Shown: piece after piece, positions 14,494-24,953 of the stretch
Numbering within the stretch: the stretch's first letter is position 1
How the letters are laid out: each line of letters starts with the position of its first letter
Assembly: GCA_030656215.1 (NCBI GenBank)
Contig: JAUSOD010000088.1
Location: 1 to 46,227, forward strand
Length of the DNA stretch: 46,227 bases
Direction: 5' to 3'
From: Azoarcus sp.
GTDB taxonomy: Bacteria > Pseudomonadota > Gammaproteobacteria > Burkholderiales > Rhodocyclaceae
Translations under genes and position numbers: made by a program
Notes under the pieces: generated by a model
The model's input: only the letters and a program-made list of their open reading frames with translations
What the model was told of the DNA's origin: nothing
The model's database searches: none

Positions 14494-14569
14494 GGGTGCT
14501 TAGCTCAGTTGGTAGAGCGTCGCCCTTACAAGGCGAATGTCGGCGGTTCGACCCCGTCAGCACCCACCA
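14494..14569 (+). tRNA. tRNA-Val(TAC)
   Basis: A 76-nt cloverleaf. The acceptor GGGTGCT pairs with AGCACCC, the D-arm contains AGCTCAGTTGGTAGAGC, the anticodon loop is CTTACAA (anticodon TAC, valine), the T-loop is GTTCGAC, and CCA is encoded. Its 3' end is the left attachment site of the integrated element downstream. Confidence 0.97.
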
Positions 14570-14570
14570 G
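14556..14570. other. attL core (3' end of tRNA-Val)
   Basis: GTCAGCACCCACCAG at the tRNA 3' end recurs at 22638-22651 with one C missing. Together with the integrase gene just inside and matched arm sites at both ends, this marks the left border of the element. Confidence 0.65.
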
Positions 14571-14586
14571 TTACTCGTGTCACCCA

Positions 14587-14652
14587 GTGTCAGGCAGTAC
14601 CAGAAACCCGCACAGCTCAAGGCTTTGCGGGTTTTTTCTTGTGTCAGGCAGT
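14587..14652. repeat. Direct repeats GTGTCAGGCAGT near attL
   Basis: GTGTCAGGCAGT is found at 14587-14598 and 14641-14652. GTGTCACC-type half copies lie beside each (about 14577 and 14651). They flank the terminator at 14604-14637 and may be excisionase or integrase sites. Confidence 0.5.
14604..14637 (+). terminator. Element-borne terminator after tRNA-Val
   Basis: AAACCCGCA (14604-14612) pairs with TGCGGGTTT (14626-14634), followed by a run of T. It replaces the native terminator that the insertion displaced to 22659-22683, so the tRNA transcript still ends correctly. Confidence 0.8.
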
Positions 14653-14670
14653 GTCACCAAGGAGCATGCA

Positions 14671-14726
14671 ATACCGTCAAATTTGGCGGTACACCTGACG
14701 GTATACGCTACCCTTGACGGTATACC
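14671..14726. repeat. Left integrase arm-type sites / int promoter region
   Basis: Three copies of a TTGACGGTAT motif: inverted at 14671-14680, direct at 14696-14706 (TGACGGTATAC) and at 14714-14726 (TTGACGGTATACC). The same motif occurs twice at the right end. Their position just before int suggests both arm binding and autoregulation. Confidence 0.65.
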
Positions 14727-14755
14727 GCCAGAACGGGCGCCGTGAGGATACCGCC

Positions 14756-15982
14756 ATGCCACTGACCGACACCGCCATACGTAAGGCCCAGCCGGGAGAG
14801 AAGGCCCGCAAGCTGGCCGACGAGCGCGGGCTGTACCTGTTGATCCAGCCGACCGGCGGAAAGCTCTGGAGGCTGGATTACCGCTTCGACGGCAAGCGCA
14901 AGACGCTCGCACTGGGCGCATACCCTGATGTGACCCTTGCGGCCGCCCGTAGGGCTCGCGATCAGGCCCGCGAACAGATCGCATCCGGTGATGATCCCAG
15001 CGCGGTCCGCAAAATCGAAAAGCTCAACCGTGTGTGTGAGGTGGCGAACTCGTTCGAGGTCATTGCTCGCGAGTGGCACAAGATGAAATCCACGGCGTGG
15101 ACCGAGTCGACCAGGCTCAAAACCCTGGCGGTGCTGCAGAACGATCTCTTTCCCTGGCTCGGAAGCCGCCCCATCGTCGAGATCAATGCCCCTGACCTGC
15201 TGGTAACCCTGCGCCGGATCGAGGCCCGCGGCGCCGTGGATAGCGCGCACCGGGCCAAGCAGATTGCCGGGCAGGTGTTCCGCTACGGCGTCGCCACCGG
15301 CAGGGCAGAGCGCAACCCGGCCGCCGATCTGCTTGGCGCGCTGGCGCCGGTAGCCAAGGTGCACTTTGCCGCGATCACCGAGCCGGGCGGTGTCGGCCCG
15401 CTGCTGCGCGCCATCGATGGCTACAAGGGCTCCTTCATCGTGCGCTGTGCCCTGCGCCTGGCACCGATGCTGTTCGTGCGCCCTGGCGAACTCAGGCAGG
15501 CGGAATGGTGCGAGATCGACCTTGACCAGGCGGAGTGGAGGATACCGGCGGAGAAGATGAAAAAGCGCCGTGACTTCATCGTTCCGCTCGCTACGCAGGC
15601 GGTGGCGATCCTGGCCGAGCTGCAGCCCTTCACCGGGCATGGGCGGTATGTTTTCCAAGGCGTGCACGATCACGGGCGCCCGATGTCGGATAACACCGTG
15701 AACAACGCACTCCGCCGGCTGGGCTACGACACCCGCACCGAGATTACCGGTCACGGCTTCAGGGCCATGGCGCGCACGATCCTGCATGAAAGCCTGGGTG
15801 TCGACGCTGCCGTGATCGAGCACCAGCTTGCGCACCGTGTGCCCGATACCCTGGGTGGCGCCTACAACCGGACGAAGTTCCTACCCCAGCGCAAGGCAAT
15901 GATGCAGCAATGGGCGGACTGGCTAGACCAGGTGCGGAAGGGGGCCGATGTGATTCCTATGCAGCGATCACAGGTGAGGTGA
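14756..15982 (+). CDS. int: P4-type tyrosine recombinase (integrase)
   Basis: A 408-residue integrase. It has an N-terminal arm-binding DUF4102-like domain (residues 1-85, with LYLLIQPTGGKLWRLDYRF and LGAYPDVTLAAAR), a SAM-like core-binding domain (about 100-190) and a catalytic domain. Active-site residues visible are Arg242 (VRPGELR), His333 and Arg336 (HGFR), His356/His360 and Tyr370 (GAYNRT). The start at 14756 has GAGGA upstream; an upstream opening through the arm repeats is unlikely to be used. It inserts and excises the element at tRNA-Val. Confidence 0.95.
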   Translation: MPLTDTAIRKAQPGEKARKLADERGLYLLIQPTGGKLWRLDYRFDGKRKTLALGAYPDVTLAAARRARDQAREQIASGDDPSAVRKIEKLNRVCEVANSFEVIAREWHKMKSTAWTESTRLKTLAVLQNDLFPWLGSRPIVEINAPDLLVTLRRIEARGAVDSAHRAKQIAGQVFRYGVATGRAERNPAADLLGALAPVAKVHFAAITEPGGVGPLLRAIDGYKGSFIVRCALRLAPMLFVRPGELRQAEWCEIDLDQAEWRIPAEKMKKRRDFIVPLATQAVAILAELQPFTGHGRYVFQGVHDHGRPMSDNTVNNALRRLGYDTRTEITGHGFRAMARTILHESLGVDAAVIEHQLAHRVPDTLGGAYNRTKFLPQRKAMMQQWADWLDQVRKGADVIPMQRSQVR

Positions 15983-15986
15983 AGCG

Positions 15987-16505
15987 ATGGCGAATTACGA
16001 TCCTCTATGGACGGCGGAACAGGCTCACGCCGCAAGCCTTGAAGAATCGGCCCGGCTTGGCCGCGATGGTGTAGAGGGACCTAATTCTGCTTTCTTCCAA
16101 TGGTATGCCCACCACGTGTTGGTGGCTTACGGAAAACAGTACGCAGAAGGCGATAAGTTCGCCCTCATGGCTGCAATATCGGAGTGCGCGCGAGCGGATC
16201 TTCCCTTGCCGGAATGGGCTGCGCGTGCCTACTTGTCAGCCTTTCAAAGTGTCGTCGGAGCTAAGTCGAAGAGTTGGGATAAAGTGTTTGGAGAGCCTTA
16301 CCCGAAGGGTACACAGCTCGCGCCGTTGGCAAAAAAGCGAAATATGAAATTTGCGGTTTGGATCCGGGTGAATGGAATTCTGGGAAGCGAGCCAGGCGTG
16401 GCAATCGATACTGGCCTTTTTGAAAGGGTGGGAAAAGAGTTCAATCTCGGAAAGACCTTGGCTTCCGAGTATTACTACGAGGCCAAAAGAATACTCTCTA
16501 GGTAA
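15987..16505 (+). CDS. Hypothetical protein next to integrase
   Basis: A 172-residue soluble protein, unrecognised. It starts 4 nt after int with a purine-rich site in the end of int, so it is probably co-transcribed. It is rich in aromatic residues (FFQWYAHHVL, SEYYYEAKRIL) and mostly helical by eye. The base composition is lower in GC than int, suggesting a different history. A 7-bp hairpin (16506-16512 with 16529-16535) follows the stop. A role in excision control or defence is possible but unsupported. Confidence 0.75.
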   Translation: MANYDPLWTAEQAHAASLEESARLGRDGVEGPNSAFFQWYAHHVLVAYGKQYAEGDKFALMAAISECARADLPLPEWAARAYLSAFQSVVGAKSKSWDKVFGEPYPKGTQLAPLAKKRNMKFAVWIRVNGILGSEPGVAIDTGLFERVGKEFNLGKTLASEYYYEAKRILSR

Positions 16506-16560
16506 TTTCCGCGAACTTTGAGAATTCTGCGGAAAGACTAGAAAGTGCTAAATCGATTTA

Positions 16561-16601
16561 ATCGCTCCATGTCGCGCCACCAAGGCGCATCAAGGAGCGA
16601 T
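16561..16601 (+). promoter_or_regulatory. Hairpin sequestering the alpA ribosome site
   Basis: ATCGCTCC (16561-16568) pairs with GGAGCGAT (16594-16601), and inside it GCGCC (16574-16578) pairs with GGCGC (16584-16588). The right arm contains the GGAG Shine-Dalgarno of alpA (ATG at 16604), so translation would be blocked when folded. As DNA it could also be an operator. Confidence 0.5.
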
Positions 16602-16603
16602 CA

Positions 16604-16840
16604 ATGCAACCACCTAGCAACACCATACCCGCAGCCCTGGCGAACTTCGATAGCTTGCCAGATTCGGCAATGGTCGACGTCAAGACCGTTGCCGCCATTC
16701 TAGGCAAATCCGAATCCTCAATCTGGCGTGATGCCAGAACCGGTAAGTTTCCGCGCCCGATCAAGACCGGCCCGGCCTGCACCAGGTGGAAAGTAGCCGC
16801 GGTCCGCGGCCACTTGGCATCACTTGAGGTGCCGGCATGA
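16604..16840 (+). CDS. alpA: AlpA-family transcriptional regulator
   Basis: A 78-residue MerR-like winged HTH protein of the AlpA/phage excisionase-regulator type. The core VDVKTVAAILGKSESSIWRD, then GKFPRPIKTGP and a final TRWKVAAVRGHL, is diagnostic. AlpA proteins activate integrase/excision genes or act as excisionases in P4-like elements. AAGGAG lies 8 nt before the ATG, inside a potential hairpin. Confidence 0.92.
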   Translation: MQPPSNTIPAALANFDSLPDSAMVDVKTVAAILGKSESSIWRDARTGKFPRPIKTGPACTRWKVAAVRGHLASLEVPA

Positions 16841-16901
16841 TTCGCTTGACACGGTCGACCACCTCCCGGCACTATCCAGCCTGCCTGCAAACAACAGGCA
16901 A

Positions 16902-16928
16902 CGGGATTGGCGTCCCGAACGACCAAGG
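16902..16928 (+). promoter_or_regulatory. seqA-like sequence, complementary to the immunity RNA
   Basis: Contains CGGGATTGGCGT (16902-16913) and GACCAAGG (16921-16928). Both are exact complements of segments of the downstream RNA (17039-17050 and 17026-17033). This mirrors seqA of phage P4. Confidence 0.6.
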
Positions 16929-16959
16929 CGGACATGTCCGCCACCCTGGCGGATTTTTT
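16927..16959 (+). terminator. Attenuator: terminator with alternative palindrome
   Basis: TCCGCCA (16937-16943) and TGGCGGA (16947-16953) form a 7-bp stem with a 3-nt loop followed by six T. The perfect 16-nt palindrome 16927-16942 uses the same left arm, so the two folds exclude each other. Pairing of the immunity RNA to seqA would decide between them (inference from P4). Confidence 0.7.
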
Positions 16960-16987
16960 ACGTCCACCGCATGTGCTGCTCCGTCTA

Positions 16988-17063
16988 TGGCGGGCCGTGT
17001 GGGAGAGCCGCAAGGCTCGCCGGTTCCTTGGTCCCGGTACGCCAATCCCGCACGCGCCCGCCA
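16988..17063 (+). ncRNA. P4-like CI immunity RNA (candidate)
   Basis: A 76-nt self-contained fold. TGGCGGGC (16988-16995) pairs with GCCCGCCA (17056-17063); CGTGTGGGA (16996-17004) pairs with TCCCGCACG (17046-17054, one wobble); a GAGCC-GCAA-GGCTC hairpin sits inside (17005-17018). The exposed stretch 17026-17050 is complementary to sequences on both sides (seqA-like 16902-16928 and seqC-like 17069-17108). In phage P4 a processed CI RNA pairs in the same way and causes premature termination of the replication operon. A 185-codon reading frame crosses this region (16837-17394), but its upstream part looks like a translation of RNA structure. Confidence 0.65.
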
Positions 17064-17068
17064 CCCCC

Positions 17069-17108
17069 GATTGGCGTCGGGGAGCGGGATTCAAGCCGCA
17101 GACCAAGG
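17069..17108 (+). promoter_or_regulatory. seqC-like sequence over the next ribosome site
   Basis: GATTGGCGT (17069-17077) and GACCAAGG (17101-17108) again complement the immunity RNA candidate. The second overlaps the AAGGAG ribosome site of the gene at 17119, so pairing could also block its translation. Confidence 0.5.
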
Positions 17109-17118
17109 AGCATCAGCC

Positions 17119-17394
17119 ATGCGAACTACCGCATCGGGCACGCCTGCCCACGCCGCTACCACCCCCAGCAACACCCCCTATCCCTTCATGGTCCAGCTCT
17201 GCCTGGACCGCGCTCGCCGCGATCTGCGCCGGGCGTCCGCTGACATGAATCTTGACCCCCACGCGGAAGGTGTCATCTATGCGCTGTGGTACACCAGCGC
17301 CATTTCAGACGAGGACCGCTCTGCGATCCTCAACGAGCGCAGCTTCCTGTTCAAGCGCGCGGTCGAGCGCTTTGCCGGGCGGGGTGCAGCATGA
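17119..17394 (+). CDS. Small hypothetical protein, first gene of replication operon
   Basis: A 91-residue protein. The start at 17119 has CCAAGGAG about 9 nt upstream. The frame is open back to 16837, but that part spans the structured RNA region. The C-terminal two thirds look helical and conserved-like (LCLDRARRDLRRASADMN, WYTSAISDEDRSAIL, SFLFKRAVERF). It overlaps the next gene by ATGA, so it heads a tightly coupled operon that ends with the DUF3987 gene. Function unknown. Confidence 0.65.
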   Translation: MRTTASGTPAHAATTPSNTPYPFMVQLCLDRARRDLRRASADMNLDPHAEGVIYALWYTSAISDEDRSAILNERSFLFKRAVERFAGRGAA

Positions 17395-17771
17395 GCCAAC
17401 CCACTAGCCCCGCATCCGCTCAAGGCGCCAGCCGTTGCGCAGCAGCTGACGCGGTCGACAACATCGGCATCAAACTCGAAAGCGCCTACGGCATCGTAGA
17501 TTTGGTCGTAACCCTCGCGAATACCGGAGATATTGAATCTCTCTATGAGCACTCCCTGTCTTCGGCGCTCATCGAAGTGATGGATCGAATCAACGAAGCC
17601 CGCGCCCTGCTGGAAGCGGTCACTTTGACAGCGTACGCGGCCCCAAAGCTGCAGCAGGCGCTACAGGCCGCGCTTGTAGTGGTTGCTGGTTGCAATGCGG
17701 ACGGCGCCTTCATCGAGCAAGATCAGATCATCCGTGCGGCGCTGGCCGAGGCCGAAGGGGTCGCAGCATGA
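17391..17771 (+). CDS. Small hypothetical protein
   Basis: A 126-residue protein, predominantly helical, acidic and Ala-rich (ALIEVMDRINEARALLEAV, LQQALQAALVVVAG). It is unrecognised. ATGA overlaps with both neighbours show translational coupling. The spacing of its helices resembles small phage and satellite accessory proteins; nothing more specific can be said. Confidence 0.7.
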   Translation: MSQPTSPASAQGASRCAAADAVDNIGIKLESAYGIVDLVVTLANTGDIESLYEHSLSSALIEVMDRINEARALLEAVTLTAYAAPKLQQALQAALVVVAGCNADGAFIEQDQIIRAALAEAEGVAA

Positions 17772-18028
17772 ACACTCCAAATTGCGCACCAGCTGATTAC
17801 TTCGACTTCACGTCCGCCTCGATCAACGAGCTATGCAGGATTCGGGCGCAACTCCAAGGAGCGCTTGCACTGCTGAATGATGATGCCGAAGTGATCATCT
17901 ATGCACAGACGCTCGTGCGAATTGCGGACGAGATGATCAAAGAGTTCGTTACCCGCCTGGATAGGAACGCCTACGCCTACGTGTTGAAAGACGAGGTAGA
18001 TGGGGGAGGCGAACATGTCGCACGTTAA
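17768..18028 (+). CDS. Small hypothetical protein
   Basis: An 86-residue protein that looks like a helical bundle (INELCRIRAQLQGALALLND, LVRIADEMIKEFV). Its general character is similar to the preceding gene product, so the two may be distant relatives or partners. It starts by ATGA overlap, and its 3' end overlaps the next gene by 14 nt. Unrecognised. Confidence 0.7.
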   Translation: MNTPNCAPADYFDFTSASINELCRIRAQLQGALALLNDDAEVIIYAQTLVRIADEMIKEFVTRLDRNAYAYVLKDEVDGGGEHVAR

Positions 18029-18353
18029 TTTCCCCGGTGGGGCCGGGATGGGGCGCGATGCCAACCGCCGCCGGCCGGGCTTCGTCGACTATGGATGGAC
18101 GGCCGAGAACGGATCTCGGGCACAGCGCCGGGAAGCCCTTCGGCTTTTGCGGGCTGCGGCCCAGCAAGGGCACCGCGATGCGGCTGCTGTGCTTGCTGAT
18201 CTGCAGGCGTCTGCACAACCGCGAACCAGCATGATGTGGTTGGTGCATGTGCCTGGCCGCCCGCCCTTCCGGGTCATCTGCCCGCAGGCAGCAACGGCAG
18301 GCGAGATCCGCGCCCAGTGGCCCGATGCAATCGTGGAGGCCCTCGATGACTGA
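18015..18353 (+). CDS. Small hypothetical protein
   Basis: A 112-residue protein. The start at 18015 has a strong GGGAGG site inside the previous gene. It carries a Sel1-like helical pair (REALRLLRAAAQQGHRDAAAVLADLQ), followed by a short strand-rich region (MMWLVHVPGRPPFRVICPQ). It overlaps the toprim gene by 8 nt. A partner of the replication proteins is plausible from position only. Confidence 0.7.
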   Translation: MSHVNFPGGAGMGRDANRRRPGFVDYGWTAENGSRAQRREALRLLRAAAQQGHRDAAAVLADLQASAQPRTSMMWLVHVPGRPPFRVICPQAATAGEIRAQWPDAIVEALDD

Positions 18354-19173
18354 GGCCGACTTCATCGCCGCCATGGGGCTTGCCGGCCTGACACCGATCA
18401 AGCTGCCTGCCCTTCCGGAAGGCAAGCTCGTTCGTTTCCGAGTTGAAGGGGACAAGTCCGGTAGCCGGAACGGCTGGGCGGTGTTGCATCGCCACCCGAT
18501 CTTGGCGGGCGTGTTCGGATCCTGGAGAACAGGCGAGCAACACACCTGGAAGGCCACCACCAATGAAACGATGACGCCTGCCGAGCTGGGCGCGCTGCGG
18601 CGCGGCCTGCAGGCAGCACAACAGGCGCGGGCCGATGAGGAAGCGCGCGTCAGGGCAACGGCAGCCGCTCGGGCGCTGAAGCTGTGGAGCGGGGCCAAGC
18701 CGGTGACAAACGATCATCCCTACCTGCGGGCCAAGGGCGTGCATGCCTTCGGTCTGCGGGCGCTGCGCGACCAGCTCATGGTGCCGGCGCGCGATGCAGA
18801 AGGGCGCCTCCATACGCTGCAGTTCATTGGCCCGGACGGGAGCAAGCGCTTCCTGACCGGCGGGCGCATCGCCGGCTGTTACTTCGCCATCGGGCGCCCG
18901 GATGACGCCTTGCTGCTGGCGGAAGGCTACAGTACCGGCGCCACCCTCTACCAGGCCACCGGAAAGGCGGTGGCGGTGTGCTTCAACTGCGGCAACCTGC
19001 TGGCCGTGGCGCGCTCACTGCGGGCCAAGTTTCCCCGCCTGCGCCTCGTGATCTGCGCCGACAACGATGAAGGCACACCAGGCAATCCCGGCCTGACCGC
19101 TGCTCATGCTGCCGCCAAGGCGGTCGGCGCCCGTGTCGCCTACCCGATCTTCACCGAGGTGTCCCATGGGTAA
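18346..19173 (+). CDS. Toprim-domain primase-like protein
   Basis: A 275-residue protein of the satellite/phage primase type. The C-terminal toprim fold is clear: the Glu motif LLLAEGYSTGATLYQATG, then CFNCGNL, and the acidic LVICADNDEG. A helical linker precedes it, with WSGAKPVTNDHPYLRAKGV typical of P4-alpha-like and plasmid primases. It lacks the helicase part, which is supplied by the next gene, overlapping by 8 nt. Together they would prime and unwind the element's own origin. Confidence 0.88.
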   Translation: MTEADFIAAMGLAGLTPIKLPALPEGKLVRFRVEGDKSGSRNGWAVLHRHPILAGVFGSWRTGEQHTWKATTNETMTPAELGALRRGLQAAQQARADEEARVRATAAARALKLWSGAKPVTNDHPYLRAKGVHAFGLRALRDQLMVPARDAEGRLHTLQFIGPDGSKRFLTGGRIAGCYFAIGRPDDALLLAEGYSTGATLYQATGKAVAVCFNCGNLLAVARSLRAKFPRLRLVICADNDEGTPGNPGLTAAHAAAKAVGARVAYPIFTEVSHG

Positions 19174-20728
19174 GCCGACCGACTTCAACGACCTGGCGCA
19201 GGCCGCCGGCACGGACGCGGTAAAGGCCGTGGTGGACAAGGCGCTGGCCGCCGTGGCGGGACAAACGCCTGTGACCGAGTGGCCGGATCCGGTTCTGCCG
19301 GGAATGATCAAGGTGCCGGAGATCCCGGCCGACATTCTCCCTGTGTGGCTGGGCGCGATGTGTGGGGCCGTGGCCGACTCAACGCAGACGCCGCCAGCCC
19401 TGGCCGTGATGGTGGGGCTGTCCGTCCTGGCTGCCGTGCTGCAACGGCGGTATGAGGTATCGCCCTTTGGTGACGACTACACCGAGCCGCTTGCCATCTG
19501 GACTCTAACGGCGCTGCCGAGCGGTGCGCGCAAATCGGCGGTGTTCAGCGCCATGACTGCGCCGTTGCTGCGCTGGGAGAAGCTGGAGTATGACCGAGGC
19601 CGGGCCGAGCGCGGGCGGGTGGCATCGGCGCGCAGGGTGGCGGAAAAGCGCATGGAGCGCCTTCTGTCCGATGCAGCGAAGGCCAAGGACGACGACGAAC
19701 GAGAACGCATCCGGGCGGAGATCCAGCACGAGAAGGACACGATGCCGGCCGAGGTGCGGGCGCCGCGCCTCTTCACCGAGGACGTGACCGCCGAGCGCCT
19801 ACAGGCAATGCTTGCCGAGTATGGCGAGCGGATGGCGCTGCTGTCGGATGAGGCCGGAATATTCCAGATCATGGCCGGCATCTACAACGGCGGATCTTCC
19901 AACCTGGATGCCTTTCTCAAGGGTCACGCCGGCACCGCGATGCGCGTGGATCGAGCGGGGCGCGAGGCGCACGTCGACAAACCCGCCCTGTCTTTCGGCC
20001 TGGCACTGCAGCCGGGCGTCCTGTCCGAGGTGGCCGCGTCGCGGCGCTTCCGGGATTCCGGCTTGCTGGCGCGCTTTCTCTTCGCCATGCCCATCAGCAA
20101 CGTCGGCAAGCGCGATGTGCGCCGCCGGGTGGCGGTGCTCGACCAGGTGCGCGACGACTACGAGGCCGCGCTGTTCCGTCTGCTTGAGGATGTGCCGGCC
20201 GTGCCTGGCAAGCCGAGAGTACTGCCGATGACGGAACCCGCGCTCGAGCTGTGGGCGGACTTCGCGCAAGAGATCGAGGACCACCAGGGCGAGGGTGGGC
20301 GGTACGAATCGATCAGTGATTGGACGAGCAAGCTACCGGGCGCCGTGGCGCGTATCGCTGCCCTGCTGGAGCTGGCCGAGGTGGGGCGCCATGCCGAGGA
20401 CGTGAGCGAGCTGGCCACCCGTCAGGCGGTGGCGCTGGGGCGTCTGCTGATCCCGCACGCACAGGCGGCATTCGGGCTGCTGGGTACCGATGGCATAGAC
20501 ACCGATGCGGGCGCCATCGTGAAGTGGATCCGAAGTAACGGGCTGGAAGAGTTCAGCCGCCGTGAGTGTCAGAAGGCCATGGAGGGCCGATTTCGCAACC
20601 TGGAGCGCCTGACCAAGGCGCTGCAACGGCTGGAGCAACAGGACGCGCTGCGGTCTTACACCAGGCGAAACAAGGGTGCGCCGTCGACAGAGGCGTGCAT
20701 CGTCAATCCGAAGCTTCTGTCGACATAG
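19166..20728 (+). CDS. DUF3987 helicase-like replication protein
   Basis: A 520-residue P-loop protein of the DUF3987 family found in satellites and plasmids. The phosphate-binding segment is PSGARKS (a variant Walker A) and the Walker B region is LLSDEAG. Following FLKGHAGTAMRVDRAGRE and DKPALSFGLALQPGVL are family hallmarks. The C-terminus resembles a small DNA-binding domain (FSRRECQKAMEGRF). It is coupled to the toprim gene and lies directly upstream of the iteron/AT-rich putative origin. Confidence 0.88.
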   Translation: MGKPTDFNDLAQAAGTDAVKAVVDKALAAVAGQTPVTEWPDPVLPGMIKVPEIPADILPVWLGAMCGAVADSTQTPPALAVMVGLSVLAAVLQRRYEVSPFGDDYTEPLAIWTLTALPSGARKSAVFSAMTAPLLRWEKLEYDRGRAERGRVASARRVAEKRMERLLSDAAKAKDDDERERIRAEIQHEKDTMPAEVRAPRLFTEDVTAERLQAMLAEYGERMALLSDEAGIFQIMAGIYNGGSSNLDAFLKGHAGTAMRVDRAGREAHVDKPALSFGLALQPGVLSEVAASRRFRDSGLLARFLFAMPISNVGKRDVRRRVAVLDQVRDDYEAALFRLLEDVPAVPGKPRVLPMTEPALELWADFAQEIEDHQGEGGRYESISDWTSKLPGAVARIAALLELAEVGRHAEDVSELATRQAVALGRLLIPHAQAAFGLLGTDGIDTDAGAIVKWIRSNGLEEFSRRECQKAMEGRFRNLERLTKALQRLEQQDALRSYTRRNKGAPSTEACIVNPKLLST

Positions 20729-20734
20729 TTGGGT

Positions 20735-20877
20735 TTGTCGCCATAAAGCTATTTTTAACTTTTTATTTATTTATTAAATACTTACGCTAGAGAAATAGAG
20801 GTACGTCGACAATGTCGACAAACTCGACAGACTGAAACCAAGCGTGAGCGTCTGTCGACATTGTCGACATTGTCGAC
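20735..20877. other. Putative replication origin: AT-rich tract plus iterons
   Basis: An AT-rich stretch (about 20735-20795) is followed by two clusters of three TGTCGACA-type palindromes at an exact 9-bp period: 20804, 20813 and 20822, then 20853, 20862 and 20871. The cluster starts are 49 bp apart. A further TGTCGACA ends the DUF3987 gene (20718-20725). AT-rich DNA beside regularly phased initiator sites, next to primase/helicase genes, is the expected design of an origin. An operator array is the alternative. Confidence 0.6.
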
Positions 20878-21023
20878 GGGTGCCTGAATCGCTGGGCGAG
20901 GTGGGGGCGGGTCAAAACTCCGAAGCCTCCCCAGCGCAGGACCGAGCGCATAGCCAAACTTTTTTAGTCGCAAGTAATGGAGTTTTTTTCTTGAAGTTGG
21001 ATGTATCAATTAGACTTGATAGA

Positions 21024-21029
21024 TATAAT
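21024..21029 (+). promoter_or_regulatory. Consensus -10 TATAAT before the capsid gene pair
   Basis: A perfect TATAAT lies just upstream of, or inside, the small gene preceding the capsid gene. No good -35 is at 16-18 bp, so it may need an activator. Transcripts would start near 21036. Confidence 0.35.
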
Positions 21030-21036
21030 GACAGCC

Positions 21037-21264
21037 ATGTTTAGACTTTTTCCTTCTATCAAATGCCTTGCCAACCTACCACGGGAAGTGGGGGACTGGG
21101 TGGCGAAACGAATGCCGGCACGGGACGTGGAAGCATATCGAATCGCTGAAGCCAAACGAAAGATGGAGAGGGAGCTACGCGCAGCGGGTACGCCCAAGCA
21201 GCTAGCTCAAATCATCGTGTCCGAACACTTCGGCACGAACAACCATCATAGGAATCGACCATGA
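21037..21264 (+). CDS. Small protein coupled to capsid gene
   Basis: About 75 residues if started at ATG 21037; ATG codons at 21001 and 21028 are also in frame, none with a good ribosome site. Basic and helical, with DVEAYRIAEAKRKMERELRAAG as a likely amphipathic helix. Its stop overlaps the capsid gene start (ATGA at 21261). It is unrecognised; a scaffold or partner of the capsid protein is possible from position. Confidence 0.55.
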   Translation: MFRLFPSIKCLANLPREVGDWVAKRMPARDVEAYRIAEAKRKMERELRAAGTPKQLAQIIVSEHFGTNNHHRNRP

Positions 21265-22466
21265 AACAGCATCTCCCCCGCCTCGCAGTCGGCGCCATCC
21301 TCGCCATCTTTGGCGCCCTGGCATACGCCGGTATTGTCACCATCACCCCCGATCACCTCATCGGCCTAGCCGCCCTGGGCTTCGTCGGAAACATTCAGCT
21401 CGTCACCTCTGCGCTTGACAACATCGAGCGCAAGTTCACCGAGGAAGTTGATCGAATGGACTGCAAGCAGCGCGAGCTGGCTGACGAGGTTCTGCAGCTC
21501 AAGCAGCGCGGCGCCCTGCCGGTCGGTGAGCTGCTGACTACCAGCGGAAGCCCTTCCGAGCGCATCGCACGGGCCATCGGTAGTGAAGCCGAGATCCTGA
21601 AGAAGAACCGGCAGATTGCCTTCGAAGTGAAATCCTTCATTGGATCCGCCGCGGTGGGCAACAGCGGGAACCTCTCCGGCATTGCTGCGCCTGTCGGCGT
21701 GCTTCACGGTGTCGGCACGGTGCTGCCGATGAAGCCCATCGGTGCAATGTCCAGCCTGAAATACACCCGCGAGAATATCTCCCTCGCGACGGGTAGCGCA
21801 GGGATACAAGCCGGTGAAGGCACCGCAAAGCCCTGGTATCAGCCGGGCTTCCAGCAAATCACACAAGAGCCGCTCACGGTTGCGGCGCTGACGAAAGTGT
21901 CGGAGCAGGCGATTCGTAACCAGTCCGAACTGGTCGCAACGGTCGAAGCCCTGATTAAACGTGACATCGCGCTCCAGATCGACCAGATGGTTCTGCTCGG
22001 TAGCACCACGCCGGCCTGGCCCGGCCTGATGGCGCTGGCCGTCGAAGATACGTCGGCGCTCTGGGGAGAACGGGCCGATGCGGCAATGGAATGCCAAGTC
22101 ACGATGGAGATGCTGGGTTCAAACCCCACCGCCATCATGATGGCCGGTACCGACTGGCTGCAAACCGCGCTGATGGAGAACGGATTTGGCATGAACAAAG
22201 CCGGACACGAACGCTACCTGAAGGAGATCGAGCGGCGAATCGGATCCATGCGGGTCGGACTGTCGGCCAACGTCACAACCGGCAAGGCCCTGCTGATTGA
22301 TCCGCTCTTTGTCGAAATCTACGTCAGTCAGGATGCAACCGTGTCCATGGCCTACGTTGAAGACGACTTCGAAAAGAACCTGATCAGCCTGCGGGTCGAG
22401 TGCGAGATCATCCCTGTACTGCGCAGCACCCGCGGGATTCGAGTCTCGAAGCCGAAGCCGGCATAA
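21261..22466 (+). CDS. HK97-fold major capsid-like protein with N-terminal membrane segments
   Basis: A 401-residue protein. Residues about 115-398 look like a phage major capsid protein: LTVAALTKVSEQAIRNQSEL and the following LIKRDIALQIDQMVLLGS form the spine-helix region, and ISLRVECEIIPVLRSTRGIRV is the usual C-terminal strand pair. Residues 6-27 and 32-50 are hydrophobic, like two membrane helices, and 52-84 form a charged coiled coil where HK97-like proteins carry a delta/scaffold domain. No portal, protease or terminase gene accompanies it. It may form a small capsid, hijack a helper's capsid, or be a membrane-anchored interference protein. Fold call fairly sure; function unknown. Confidence 0.8.
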   Translation: MKQHLPRLAVGAILAIFGALAYAGIVTITPDHLIGLAALGFVGNIQLVTSALDNIERKFTEEVDRMDCKQRELADEVLQLKQRGALPVGELLTTSGSPSERIARAIGSEAEILKKNRQIAFEVKSFIGSAAVGNSGNLSGIAAPVGVLHGVGTVLPMKPIGAMSSLKYTRENISLATGSAGIQAGEGTAKPWYQPGFQQITQEPLTVAALTKVSEQAIRNQSELVATVEALIKRDIALQIDQMVLLGSTTPAWPGLMALAVEDTSALWGERADAAMECQVTMEMLGSNPTAIMMAGTDWLQTALMENGFGMNKAGHERYLKEIERRIGSMRVGLSANVTTGKALLIDPLFVEIYVSQDATVSMAYVEDDFEKNLISLRVECEIIPVLRSTRGIRVSKPKPA

Positions 22467-22474
22467 GCCACAAG

Positions 22475-22502
22475 CTGCGCCCTGGGGCAACCTGGGGCGC
22501 AG
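22475..22502 (+). terminator. Hairpin after capsid gene
   Basis: CTGCGCCC (22475-22482) pairs with GGGCGCAG (22495-22502). It lies just past the stop codon without a T-run. Confidence 0.4.
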
Positions 22503-22554
22503 GGTGCTGCAGTTCGCACCAGTGCACACGTCTGGACGAGCCCCCGGCAGTGGA

Positions 22555-22578
22555 TGACGGTATTTTTGACGGTATACC
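22555..22578. repeat. Right integrase arm-type sites
   Basis: TGACGGTAT at 22555-22563 and TTGACGGTATACC at 22566-22578. The latter is identical to 14714-14726 at the other end of the element. Confidence 0.7.
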
Positions 22579-22624
22579 TGAATTCTGCACTGGTGAATGT
22601 CTTTCTGTTATTGGCATTCACGTT

Positions 22625-22651
22625 ACTCCCTGAGGGAGTCAGCACCACCAG
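22625..22651. other. attR with adjoining palindrome
   Basis: GTCAGCACCACCAG (22638-22651) matches the tRNA-Val 3' end except for one missing C. The palindrome ACTCCC-TGA-GGGAGT (22625-22639) overlaps its left edge. Sequence beyond it is the displaced tRNA flank, including a terminator. Confidence 0.6.
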
Positions 22652-23262: not shown

Positions 23263-23544
23263 CTAGTCAGTGCTGCGATTTACAAACGGGTAACCGTAGA
23301 GGCGCAGCAGGTCCTTGAATGCTTGGGCGCTGAGCGTGGGATCGTAGCGCGCGAAGATCGCTGCTTGTCTTAAGTGCTGCTCGCTGGGGAGCAGGGAGAG
23401 CAGCGTTTCGCGTTCGTCCAGGATGTCATCGCACATCCGTTCGCTGACGAACAGGAAGGCAATAGGGTGATACAGGCCGTCCTCGTTGAGGAGGTGGAAC
23501 TGCGGGTGTGCGATCTGGATGCATTCAGCGGTGTGGCTTTTCAT
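23263..23544 (-). CDS. Hypothetical protein, paralogue of the 24684-24953 product
   Basis: A 93-residue protein beginning MKSHT. It shares roughly half of its positions over the first 50 residues with the product of 24684-24953: FHL, DGL, PI-F-FVSE, MC-DI, ER, then RYDP, AF and LRL at the same spacing. The shared pattern on the same strand 1.4 kb apart shows a duplicated gene and supports both as real. The ATG lacks a good ribosome site. No domain is recognised. The permuted tmRNA gene lies between the two. Confidence 0.65.
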   Translation of the reverse strand: MKSHTAECIQIAHPQFHLLNEDGLYHPIAFLFVSERMCDDILDERETLLSLLPSEQHLRQAAIFARYDPTLSAQAFKDLLRLYGYPFVNRSTD

Positions 23545-24012: not shown

Positions 24013-24249
24013 ATTCGTAATCCCGGGTAAGAGAACCTCCGATCCCTGCGCATGCCGATGGTTCTGTTGCACCTTGTCCCAGGTTCTTGACGCTGGGAGA
24101 TATTTTGATCGCCGGAGCGATTCGAGATGGTATCGCCCGCGCCGACCATGGCGTAAAGGTCCATGCCGACAGATGGAAAAACGGTGCCAGTGGCTGATGA
24201 AGTGATGCTTGACGATCTGTTGGCGACGATAGCCGGCCTCCGGACGTGA

Positions 24250-24525
24250 CGATGGGGACCGAAGTCCCCACCGGCTGTCTTGAGTTACAAGGCTTCAGCG
24301 GCCCCGGCAATCTGCTTATGCAGCGATTGCGAAACGCTCATCGTTGGCGTTTAAGGATTTGCGCGGATTACGTCCGTCGCCTCTCGAGTTGCCTGCTCAC
24401 CTTTGTCTGCCCTGTCGAAGCCGTGACACCCCCACCTAAACACACGTTCCGATGCGTTTAGGTGGAGGTGAGGGGAGTCGAACCCCTGTCCAGAACACCG
24501 CCAGATTGCCGGAATTACAACCATG
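24250..24525 (-). ncRNA. ssrA: Circularly permuted two-piece tmRNA
   Basis: On the minus strand the acceptor piece comes first: a T-arm with loop TTCGACT, then CACCTCC and ACC ending at 24461. A 27-nt intervening hairpin (24434-24460) follows, then the coding piece starting with GGGGGTG at 24433. CACCTCC and GGGGGTG form the acceptor stem (one G-U). The tag frame at 24316-24348 reads ANDERFAIAA plus stop. AGATTGCCGG (24304-24313) and CCGGCAATCT (24503-24512) form a perfect 10-bp helix joining the pieces. The terminal A of CCA is not encoded. A UUCG-capped hairpin (24254-24269) lies near the 3' end. Outer ends are estimates. tmRNA rescues stalled ribosomes and tags chains for ClpXP and Lon, whose genes are upstream. 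Confidence 0.9.
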
Positions 24526-24683
24526 TCCGAATGATGGGGGCAGAGCGGGACGATTGCAAGACGTCACGACCGGCATTTTGTAAGTGCCTGTCAAAGTCGG
24601 TCCGGACAGTTGCCGTCGAACTGCTGCCGGGACGCAACGCTCATTCTTGTTGCGGTTGTTCCTCACTGCGCTGGCCATCAGTG

Positions 24684-24953
24684 CTACAGGGGCTTGGTGA
24701 CTCCGAAAAGCCGGAGGATGTCGTCAAACGCGTGAACGCTGATTCTTGGGTCGTAGCGATCAAGGAGCTTCTGTTGCTGCGCCAGACGCTCAGGCCGCGT
24801 GGCATCGAGGATCGTCCGGCGTTCCCGCTCAATGTCCTGGCACATGCTCTCACTGACGAAAACAAAGGGAATCGGCCGAAACAGCCCGTCGGCCTGACGC
24901 AGATGGAAACGCGGGTTAGCGGGCACGATGCTCTCGGAGGTATGGCTTTTCAT
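24684..24953 (-). CDS. Hypothetical protein, paralogue of the 23263-23544 product
   Basis: An 89-residue protein, MKSHT start with AAGG 6-9 nt upstream. It has the same pattern as its paralogue: FHLRQADGL, PIPFVFVSESMCQDIERER, RYDP, AFDDILRLFG. It lies directly upstream of the tmRNA gene on the same strand, about 160 bp away. Cytoplasmic, helical and charged. No function can be assigned. Confidence 0.7.
   Translation of the reverse strand: MKSHTSESIVPANPRFHLRQADGLFRPIPFVFVSESMCQDIERERRTILDATRPERLAQQQKLLDRYDPRISVHAFDDILRLFGVTKPL

Follow-up and report, generated by a model that had tools for sequence, protein, structure and literature searches.

An integrated satellite-like element of approximately 8.1 kb is present at a tRNA-Val gene in the window, which is the whole analysed stretch of 46,227 nucleotides from Azoarcus sp. 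The element carries a lone gene for an HK97-fold major capsid protein, preceded by a small partner gene. The HK97 fold, the isolation of the capsid gene, the recurrence of the gene pair and a shortened N-terminal region were all computed here, the last for the window protein and for the lone capsid proteins of a Dechloromonas sp. (G177) and a Burkholderiales MAG (G384). From its genes, the element is read, at somewhat better than an even chance, as a PICMI-like satellite that adds one foreign capsid subunit to helper phage heads, as Ccm of the staphylococcal island SaPIbov5 does.

The element and its capsid gene

The features of the element are listed below by position in the window, strand and identity.

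14494–14569, forward: tRNA-Val (tac), found with ARAGORN; integration target
14556–14570, forward: attL, GTCAGCACCCACCAG, at the tRNA-Val end; pairs with the copy at 22638 with one 1-base gap (by eye)
14670–14726, no strand: putative integrase arm-type repeats ATACCGTCA / TGACGGTATAC, common to 22555–22578
14756–15982, forward: tyrosine integrase (Pfam Phage_integrase 1.7e-17, Arm-DNA-bind_3 1.2e-27)
15987–16505, forward: 172-aa gene contiguous to the integrase gene; no Pfam or PHROG family
16604–16840, forward: AlpA-like regulator/excisionase (Phage_AlpA 1.1e-4, 22.4 bits, cut-off 21; phrog_66 5.1e-7)
16837–17394, forward: weak Ash-like regulator (phrog_3960 4.3e-5; Pfam Phage_ASH 0.099, under the cut-off)
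18247–19173, forward: Toprim primase, start uncertain (Toprim_3 8.7e-9; phrog_2249 2.1e-69)
19106–20728, forward: DUF3987 replicative helicase, start uncertain (Pfam 1.4e-98; phrog_2373 2.9e-60)
20683–20877, no strand: GTCGAC repeat array, possible origin; its first copies lie within the helicase gene
21037–21264, forward: 75-aa partner, predicted helix-turn-helix; family likened to the C-terminal tail of maturation proteases
21261–22466, forward: capsid ORF, 401 aa, lone HK97-fold major capsid protein; leader at about residues 1–44, coiled coil at 45–84, HK97 fold thereafter
22555–22578, no strand: right-end arm-type repeats, shared with the left-end repeats
22638–22651, forward: tentative attR, GTCAGCACCACCAG, one base shorter than attL (by eye)

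The integrase ORF opens at a TTG at position 14714. Four other genomes of the genus match the window up to 14569–14571, which is the end of the tRNA-Val gene. Their sequence downstream is different, so that they do not place the right edge. The right end of the element is tentative: ungapped repeat searches found no attR in the window, and the best match of a gapped scan was unrelated. Downstream of the element lies a permuted tmRNA gene (24225–24552, reverse strand), flanked by two reverse-strand ORFs (23263–23544 and 24684–24953) whose products of 93 and 89 amino acids look related by eye.

The integrase, the AlpA-like protein, the primase and the DUF3987 helicase at tRNA-Val bear out the satellite-like character that the original prediction ascribed to the element. 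Its ORFs of at least 200 amino acids (greedy list, 14570–22651) are the integrase, the primase, the helicase and the capsid only, which leaves no hidden ORF long enough for a usual large terminase or portal. Pfam, PHROGs and the ORF list revealed no portal, terminase or protease in the element and turned up the capsid alone, consistent with the claim that the approximately 8 kb hold no other head gene.

The hexamer GTCGAC occurs seven times in 510 nucleotides at the array, compared with 26 times in the remaining 45,717 nucleotides of the window. After the helicase in other loci, it was counted five times in L133, four times in L135, three times each in L129 and L130, twice in L136 and once in L140, and the count was zero in L131, L132, L134, L137, L138, L139, L141 and L014.

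The capsid protein matches Pfam Phage_capsid barely over the cut-off (E 1.7e-5, 24.8 bits, cut-off 24.2) and the PHROG major head protein phrog_10 with an E-value of 1.3e-10. An AlphaFold2 model based on a 30-sequence alignment reached a pLDDT of 78.4 and a pTM of 0.66. Its best solved Foldseek match is HK97 Prohead I (8fqk_A, E 4.2e-18), with a TM-score of 0.85 over the target and 0.58 over the query, and its top matches among viral models are phage capsid proteins. By profile and by fold, the window protein belongs to the HK97-fold major capsid proteins. The capsid-like nature first proposed from the letters is thus confirmed by Pfam, phrog_10 and the predicted structure, and the model of residues 1–401 that had been suggested as a check yielded the HK97 fold rather than an unrelated one. 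The N-terminal architecture was also correctly described as hydrophobic helices followed by a coiled coil: helices are predicted at residues 5–22 and 30–37, followed by a long helix at 45–84, with modest model confidence in this part (block-mean pLDDT 58–82).

Relatives and sister loci

Capsid searches covered 297 genomes of the family (E 1e-5) and 399 genomes of the order (E 1e-6). Beyond the window's own genome, the family-wide search returned G177 and G195, and the order-wide search G177, G384 and G451, four genomes in all. G195 and G451 contain ordinary phages with terminase, portal and protease. The lone capsid genes of G177 (contig SSXW01000001.1) and G384 (JAUXYA010000014.1) reside in elements of 7.7 kb, with 48-base tRNA repeats differing by one mismatch, and of 8.7 kb, with identical 45-base repeats, respectively. 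A terminase small subunit is encoded in G384 (phrog_83, 2e-7). In G177, a tape-measure protein of 772 amino acids (L017:7381–9699, reverse strand; phrog_1292, 2.8e-24) is encoded beside the lone capsid, and no replication gene was recognised in this satellite. The capsid proteins of the window and G177 share 32% identity, and both frames are intact.

No close relatives came up when single proteins were searched against viral and genome contigs, phages and plasmids. At E 1e-9, a class-wide profile search of 369 genomes added nothing to the capsid lineage of the window and G177, and scanning viral contigs with this pair led back to the G177 element only. The window and G177 proteins pair as sisters (100/100), on a long stem, in a tree computed from 72 proteins. 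With 74 proteins, seven satellites among them, a second tree requires three label changes for the satellites, which form one group in 0 of 200 bootstrap trees; the branches are long, so the placements are unsure. Of 92 loci with capsid relatives, profiles seeded from one G195 phage detect a large terminase, a portal or an S78 protease, or more than one of these, in 83. The nine loci in which none of the three is detected are five copies of the G177 and G384 satellites and four with the capsid gene at a contig edge.

A helicase search of the 297 family genomes (E 1e-60) found 14 loci in 13 genomes, including the window's own. The region 3' of the helicase was examined in the 13 sister loci, with PHROGs run on 20 chosen ORFs over 12 of them. 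Recognisable phage genes follow the helicase in 11 of the 13: a capsid in six, a portal, a protease and a minor tail protein in one each, and a terminase small subunit only in two. The capsids were assigned in G253 (6.4e-20), G140 contig 147 (3.6e-16), G227 (1.4e-57) and G178 (5.7e-51), in G027 through a match to the C-terminal part of a protease-and-capsid family (1.9e-37), and in G080, where a 617-aa protease–capsid fusion (L141:9290–11143; 2.4e-131) is the sole structural gene found. G048 combines a portal (4.1e-95) with a terminase small subunit (7.4e-10), G089 combines a maturation protease (2.4e-64) with a terminase small subunit (3.2e-8), and G139 encodes a minor tail protein (1.5e-53). 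In G140 contig 133 (2.4e-24) and G066 (2.2e-16), the terminase small subunit is found without another structural gene, and contig ends cut both loci. PHROGs gave nothing clear in G003, the best match being a terminase small subunit at 0.11. In G104 (L134, the one locus besides the 12 run with PHROGs), the last ORF before the contig end is presumably a transposase.

Eight capsid-bearing elements with both ends placed measure 7.7–9.0 kb. Their att repeats are clear in five (L132, L135, L141, L014 and L017, from G253, G140 contig 147, G080, G384 and G177; scores 39–100) and tentative in three. Of the latter, L136 and L137 (G027 and G178) have short and gapped repeats like those of the window, with a score of 29 against an unrelated best of 28, and the window's repeat was paired by eye. 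The capsid gene is the last ORF of at least 200 amino acids before the far att in all eight, in L141 as the protease–capsid fusion. The leftover ORFs of this size are the tape-measure gene and a 207-aa ORF without PHROG match in G177, a 223-aa ORF in G140, and three antisense ORFs of 201–296 amino acids in G027 and G080. Except for the tape-measure gene, none of them reaches the length of a usual large terminase or portal; those of G140, G027 and G080 could still include a small protease gene. A full set of head genes hidden beside relatives, which the original prediction had named as a refutation, was not found in any of the eight.

It is conceivable, at slightly less than an even chance, that PICMI-like satellites of the window's family have a slot of interchangeable content, bounded by the replication genes and the far att, in which each element keeps one captured helper head or tail gene, sometimes with a terminase small subunit. 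The slot would be occupied by a capsid with an orphan protease-tail minigene, a protease–capsid fusion, a portal, a maturation protease or a minor tail protein. Each satellite would then act by subunit substitution at a different assembly step, and the orphan protease tail would be a new stand-alone scaffold or docking factor.

A defective prophage remnant was rejected as an explanation, in view of the intact frames, the satellite core and the one layout across eight elements. The capsid genes could also be passengers, trapped from prophages by recombination and doing little, as may be the case for the capsid gene c1499 of EcCICFT073, whose deletion had no measured effect (PMC6092414, in excerpt). 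The varying type of structural gene among the sister loci would suit such trapping. This explanation is nevertheless quite improbable, as the window and G177 frames are intact at 32% identity with a related small partner before each, and as the capsid gene occupies the same place in eight elements.

Pure interference, in which the odd subunit and the docking peptide would poison helper heads in a defence-like manner without packaging in remodelled heads, is very unlikely. The differing single structural genes of the sister loci would each fit a dominant-negative role, and Ccm expressed alone lowers phi12 titres 10^3- to 10^4-fold (PMC5052747, in excerpt). However, terminase small subunits follow the helicase in four of the 13 sister loci, in two of them beside a portal or protease gene, and G384 encodes one as well, which points to packaging as well as blocking.

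Leader, scaffold region and partner gene

Hydrophobic N-termini were found in 10 of 67 non-redundant phage capsid proteins. This set treats proteins that agree over all of their last 200 residues as a single entry and omits 12 loci, namely five satellite loci, five at a contig edge (L033, L040, L074, L031 and L041) and two whose start is improbable (L069 and L102). All ten leader-bearing loci (L016, L063, L064, L070, L082, L083, L087, L088, L093 and L101) show profile matches for large terminase and portal, and six of the ten for an S78 protease. The phage leaders are signal-peptide-like, with a basic start, a hydrophobic stretch and A-x-A-like motifs of small residues; the starts of L016 (MKQNHIRWAIAAVLAVFAGFAMAG) and of the window protein (MKQHLPRLAVGAILAIFGALAYAG) were compared. 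Among the literature matches listed, as titles and abstract starts, there was no report of such a leader in phage capsid proteins.

The original prediction had taken the N-terminal helices as possible evidence of work at the membrane, perhaps in defence. A hydropathy peak of 2.34 at residue 8 (19-residue window) and an AYA motif at residues 21–23 would fit helices that tie the capsid domain to the membrane, where it would serve the host or defence. However, because ordinary phage capsid proteins share such leaders, hydrophobic helices alone indicate no membrane or defence role. As all ten phage loci have a large terminase and a portal nearby, and as the sister satellite capsid protein of G177 has no leader, this function was rejected and is regarded as extremely improbable. 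The existence of hydrophobic capsid leaders in ordinary phages corrects an attractive misreading.

The length of the scaffold region was assessed by the number of residues before the landmark E186. Among leaderless proteins, G177 has 146 and G384 has 155 such residues, compared with 160–223 in 57 phage proteins. Among leader-bearing proteins, the window protein has 186 and that of G227 has 188, compared with 203–230 in 10 phage proteins. No shortening is seen in G253 (leader-bearing, 207), G140 (204) and G178 (235), where the landmark is poorly aligned; G253 and G140 are within the phage range and G178 is longer. The shortening is not general among satellites.

The partner protein comprises 75 amino acids, or 87 if started at 21001. 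As originally noted, its gene at 21037–21264 overlaps the start of the capsid gene, with an overlap of four bases, ATGA. Its best match among 8204 ORFs is a 57-aa ORF directly before the G177 capsid gene (E 0.0033), which shows the same ATGA overlap. The next matches, with E-values of 0.1 and weaker, are maturation-protease-like ORFs that lie immediately ahead of phage capsid genes and align through their C-terminal part. The small proteins were compared by hhalign with a profile of 56 protease tails; 11 tails not aligning to the motif had been removed from it, so that motif conservation in the profile is not an unbiased count. The window protein scored 23.5 and the G177 protein 24.5. None of 993 control ORFs exceeded 17.9; these controls are 995 ORFs taken from 4468 small ones, less two that were the G177 gene itself. 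Such small genes also precede the capsids of G253 and G140, with scores of 42.2 and 27.9. The four-member family of the window, G177, G253 and G140 reached 42.5 with a probability of 95.8, and 300 column shuffles stayed at or below 17.7.

Several candidates were rejected as tail proteins, namely the upstream ORFs of G384 (16.0 and 16.6, within the top of the control scores) and those of G227 and G178 (13.7 and 9.2). A tail HMM built from S78 proteases only found G253 alone (E 2.9e-7) and missed the proteins of the window (E 370), G177 (3.9) and G140 (1.9). The tie of the window protein to protease tails is therefore indirect. One tail common to S78 and ClpP-type proteases, the latter assigned by eye, was likewise dismissed, as the S78-only HMM gave no support.

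The structure model of the 75-aa protein, another check proposed at the outset, has low confidence overall (pLDDT 69.7, pTM 0.45) and contains a helix-turn-helix, residues 28–50 and 54–66, over the shared motif. In the favoured reading, it would most likely be an independent module that docks to the capsid and is akin to the maturation-protease tail. If this is right, an orphan protease-tail protein would open a way to test directly how proheads recruit maturation proteases.

The satellite protein might build a whole small shell and borrow only portal, terminase, protease and tail from a helper. The HK97 fold, the retained coiled-coil scaffold region and the protease-tail-like partner adjoining the capsid all speak for such a shell. 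It is an unlikely solution, however, since the scaffold region is shortened, no portal or protease was found in the element, and Ccm, the best-studied lone homologue, cannot form shells alone (PMC8569155, in excerpt).

Proposed function and known satellite systems

The HK97 fold, the shortened delta region and the lack of a detected portal, terminase or protease in the element make co-assembly with a helper capsid the most likely function. Remodelling of a helper capsid was one of several functions offered by the original prediction and is retained, on analysis of the gene content, as the favoured one. Co-assembly is further suggested by the window and G177 frames, intact at 32% identity and each with an ATGA-overlapping small gene, and by the helicase-related loci, which hold single structural genes at the same place. 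Against it stand the dispensable c1499 of EcCICFT073, the unshortened regions of G253, G140 and G178, the failure of the window's 75-aa protein to match the S78-only tail HMM, the tape-measure gene of G177 and its lack of a recognised replication gene, and the capsids of G384, G227 and G178, for which the hhalign tests revealed no such partner.

We infer a course of events that depends on a helper phage. Once such a phage is active, the element would excise through Int and AlpA and would be replicated by its own primase and helicase, perhaps from the GTCGAC array. At a late stage, the lone capsid protein and its 75-aa partner would be made, providing one foreign head subunit. The capsid protein would co-assemble with the capsid protein, portal and terminase of the helper and may bias the shell to a size suiting the 8-kb element, to the harm of the helper, as described for SaPIbov5 Ccm. 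The 75-aa protein could supply protease or scaffold docking or compete with it, as CpmB does with the 80alpha scaffold.

In the window's genome, one second Phage_capsid gene was found at E-values up to 0.01, by eye a protease–capsid fusion, in a prophage on contig 113. At an E-value of 1e-5, the window protein matched only itself in its own genome, and no helper can therefore be named. The minor tail protein of G139 (L130:6055–6933, reverse strand) resembles, by eye, an ORF of the contig 113 prophage (L114:16–708), a likeness that gives a hint at the type of helper.

If co-assembly is right, single-subunit head piracy, known from staphylococcal Ccm, would extend to Gram-negative satellites. 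Such piracy would be modular, the stolen part being a capsid, portal, protease, tail protein or terminase small subunit. The satellites would thereby offer a natural set of single-component perturbations, suited to testing which head part limits size and specificity. In the open literature covered, with subscription papers mostly outside the search, Ccm, EcCICFT073, cf-PICI and Streptomyces satellites are already described; neither a partner resembling a protease tail nor a slot for one interchangeable gene was found reported in the abstracts and passages covered.

The element resembles the PICMI of Vibrionaceae in its small size and in carrying an integrase gene, a contiguous or overlapping gene, alpA and a DUF3987 primase. 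PICMI of Vibrio are described as carrying int, alpA and a DUF3987 or DUF5906 primase, as lying beside fis and as encoding no capsid remodelling (PMC10803314, in excerpt). The PICMI core models PF00589, PF05930 and PF13148 are found together over their cut-offs in the element. Unlike PICMI, it is inserted at tRNA-Val rather than beside fis, and it contains a capsid gene. The gene set of P4-like satellites (psu, delta, sid, alpA, epsilon, alpha and int) is not matched: of ten window proteins compared with Pfam, the integrase and AlpA pass the cut-offs, Ash/epsilon remains under its cut-off at 0.099, and no Psu, delta or alpha model is among the matches.

With cf-PICI and Mulch/Flayer, the element shares a satellite-encoded capsid. 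These satellites carry full head and packaging sets (PMC10690885, in excerpt), and a cf-PICI with its own terminase, portal, protease, capsid and connectors was rejected, since only a capsid gene was found here. The statement that known capsid-forming satellites carry a set of packaging genes does not hold throughout, as SaPIbov5 (PMC8569155) and EcCICFT073 (PMC6092414) have single capsid homologues according to the excerpts of these reports. Like the window element, EcCICFT073 of E. coli is an AlpA-type PICI with one putative capsid gene, c1499; it also has a decoration gene. In excerpts of the report, c1499 can be deleted with interference and transfer kept, phage-sized DNA alone is packaged with phage lambda, and, unlike in the window, no protease-tail partner is mentioned (PMC6092414).

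The closest counterparts in function would be two staphylococcal proteins. Relative to the helper protein, the HK97-fold homologue Ccm of SaPIbov5 has a delta domain shortened by 44 residues (PMC5052747, in excerpt); in small T=4 shells made together with helper capsid protein, Ccm takes the pentamer positions (PMC8569155, in excerpt). Compared by description rather than by sequence, the window protein is likewise a lone HK97-fold homologue. Its N-terminal region is shorter than in the leader-bearing phage proteins, its identity to phage capsid proteins is low, and no protease or portal was identified in its satellite. It differs from Ccm in the host phylum, in the protease-tail-like partner and in the hydrophobic leader of some members. 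CpmB of SaPI1, with 72 amino acids, competes with the helper scaffold via a shared C-terminal motif (PMC5644958, in excerpt). As with CpmB and with Rcm of SaPIpT1028, the window partner is a small, predicted helical protein whose family appears to share a short motif with a helper-type head-assembly protein. Whereas CpmB resembles the helper scaffold, the window family resembles a protease tail, and the window gene adjoins the capsid gene. The window pair holds the parts for both tricks, a shortened capsid protein as in Ccm and a small docking-like protein as in CpmB.
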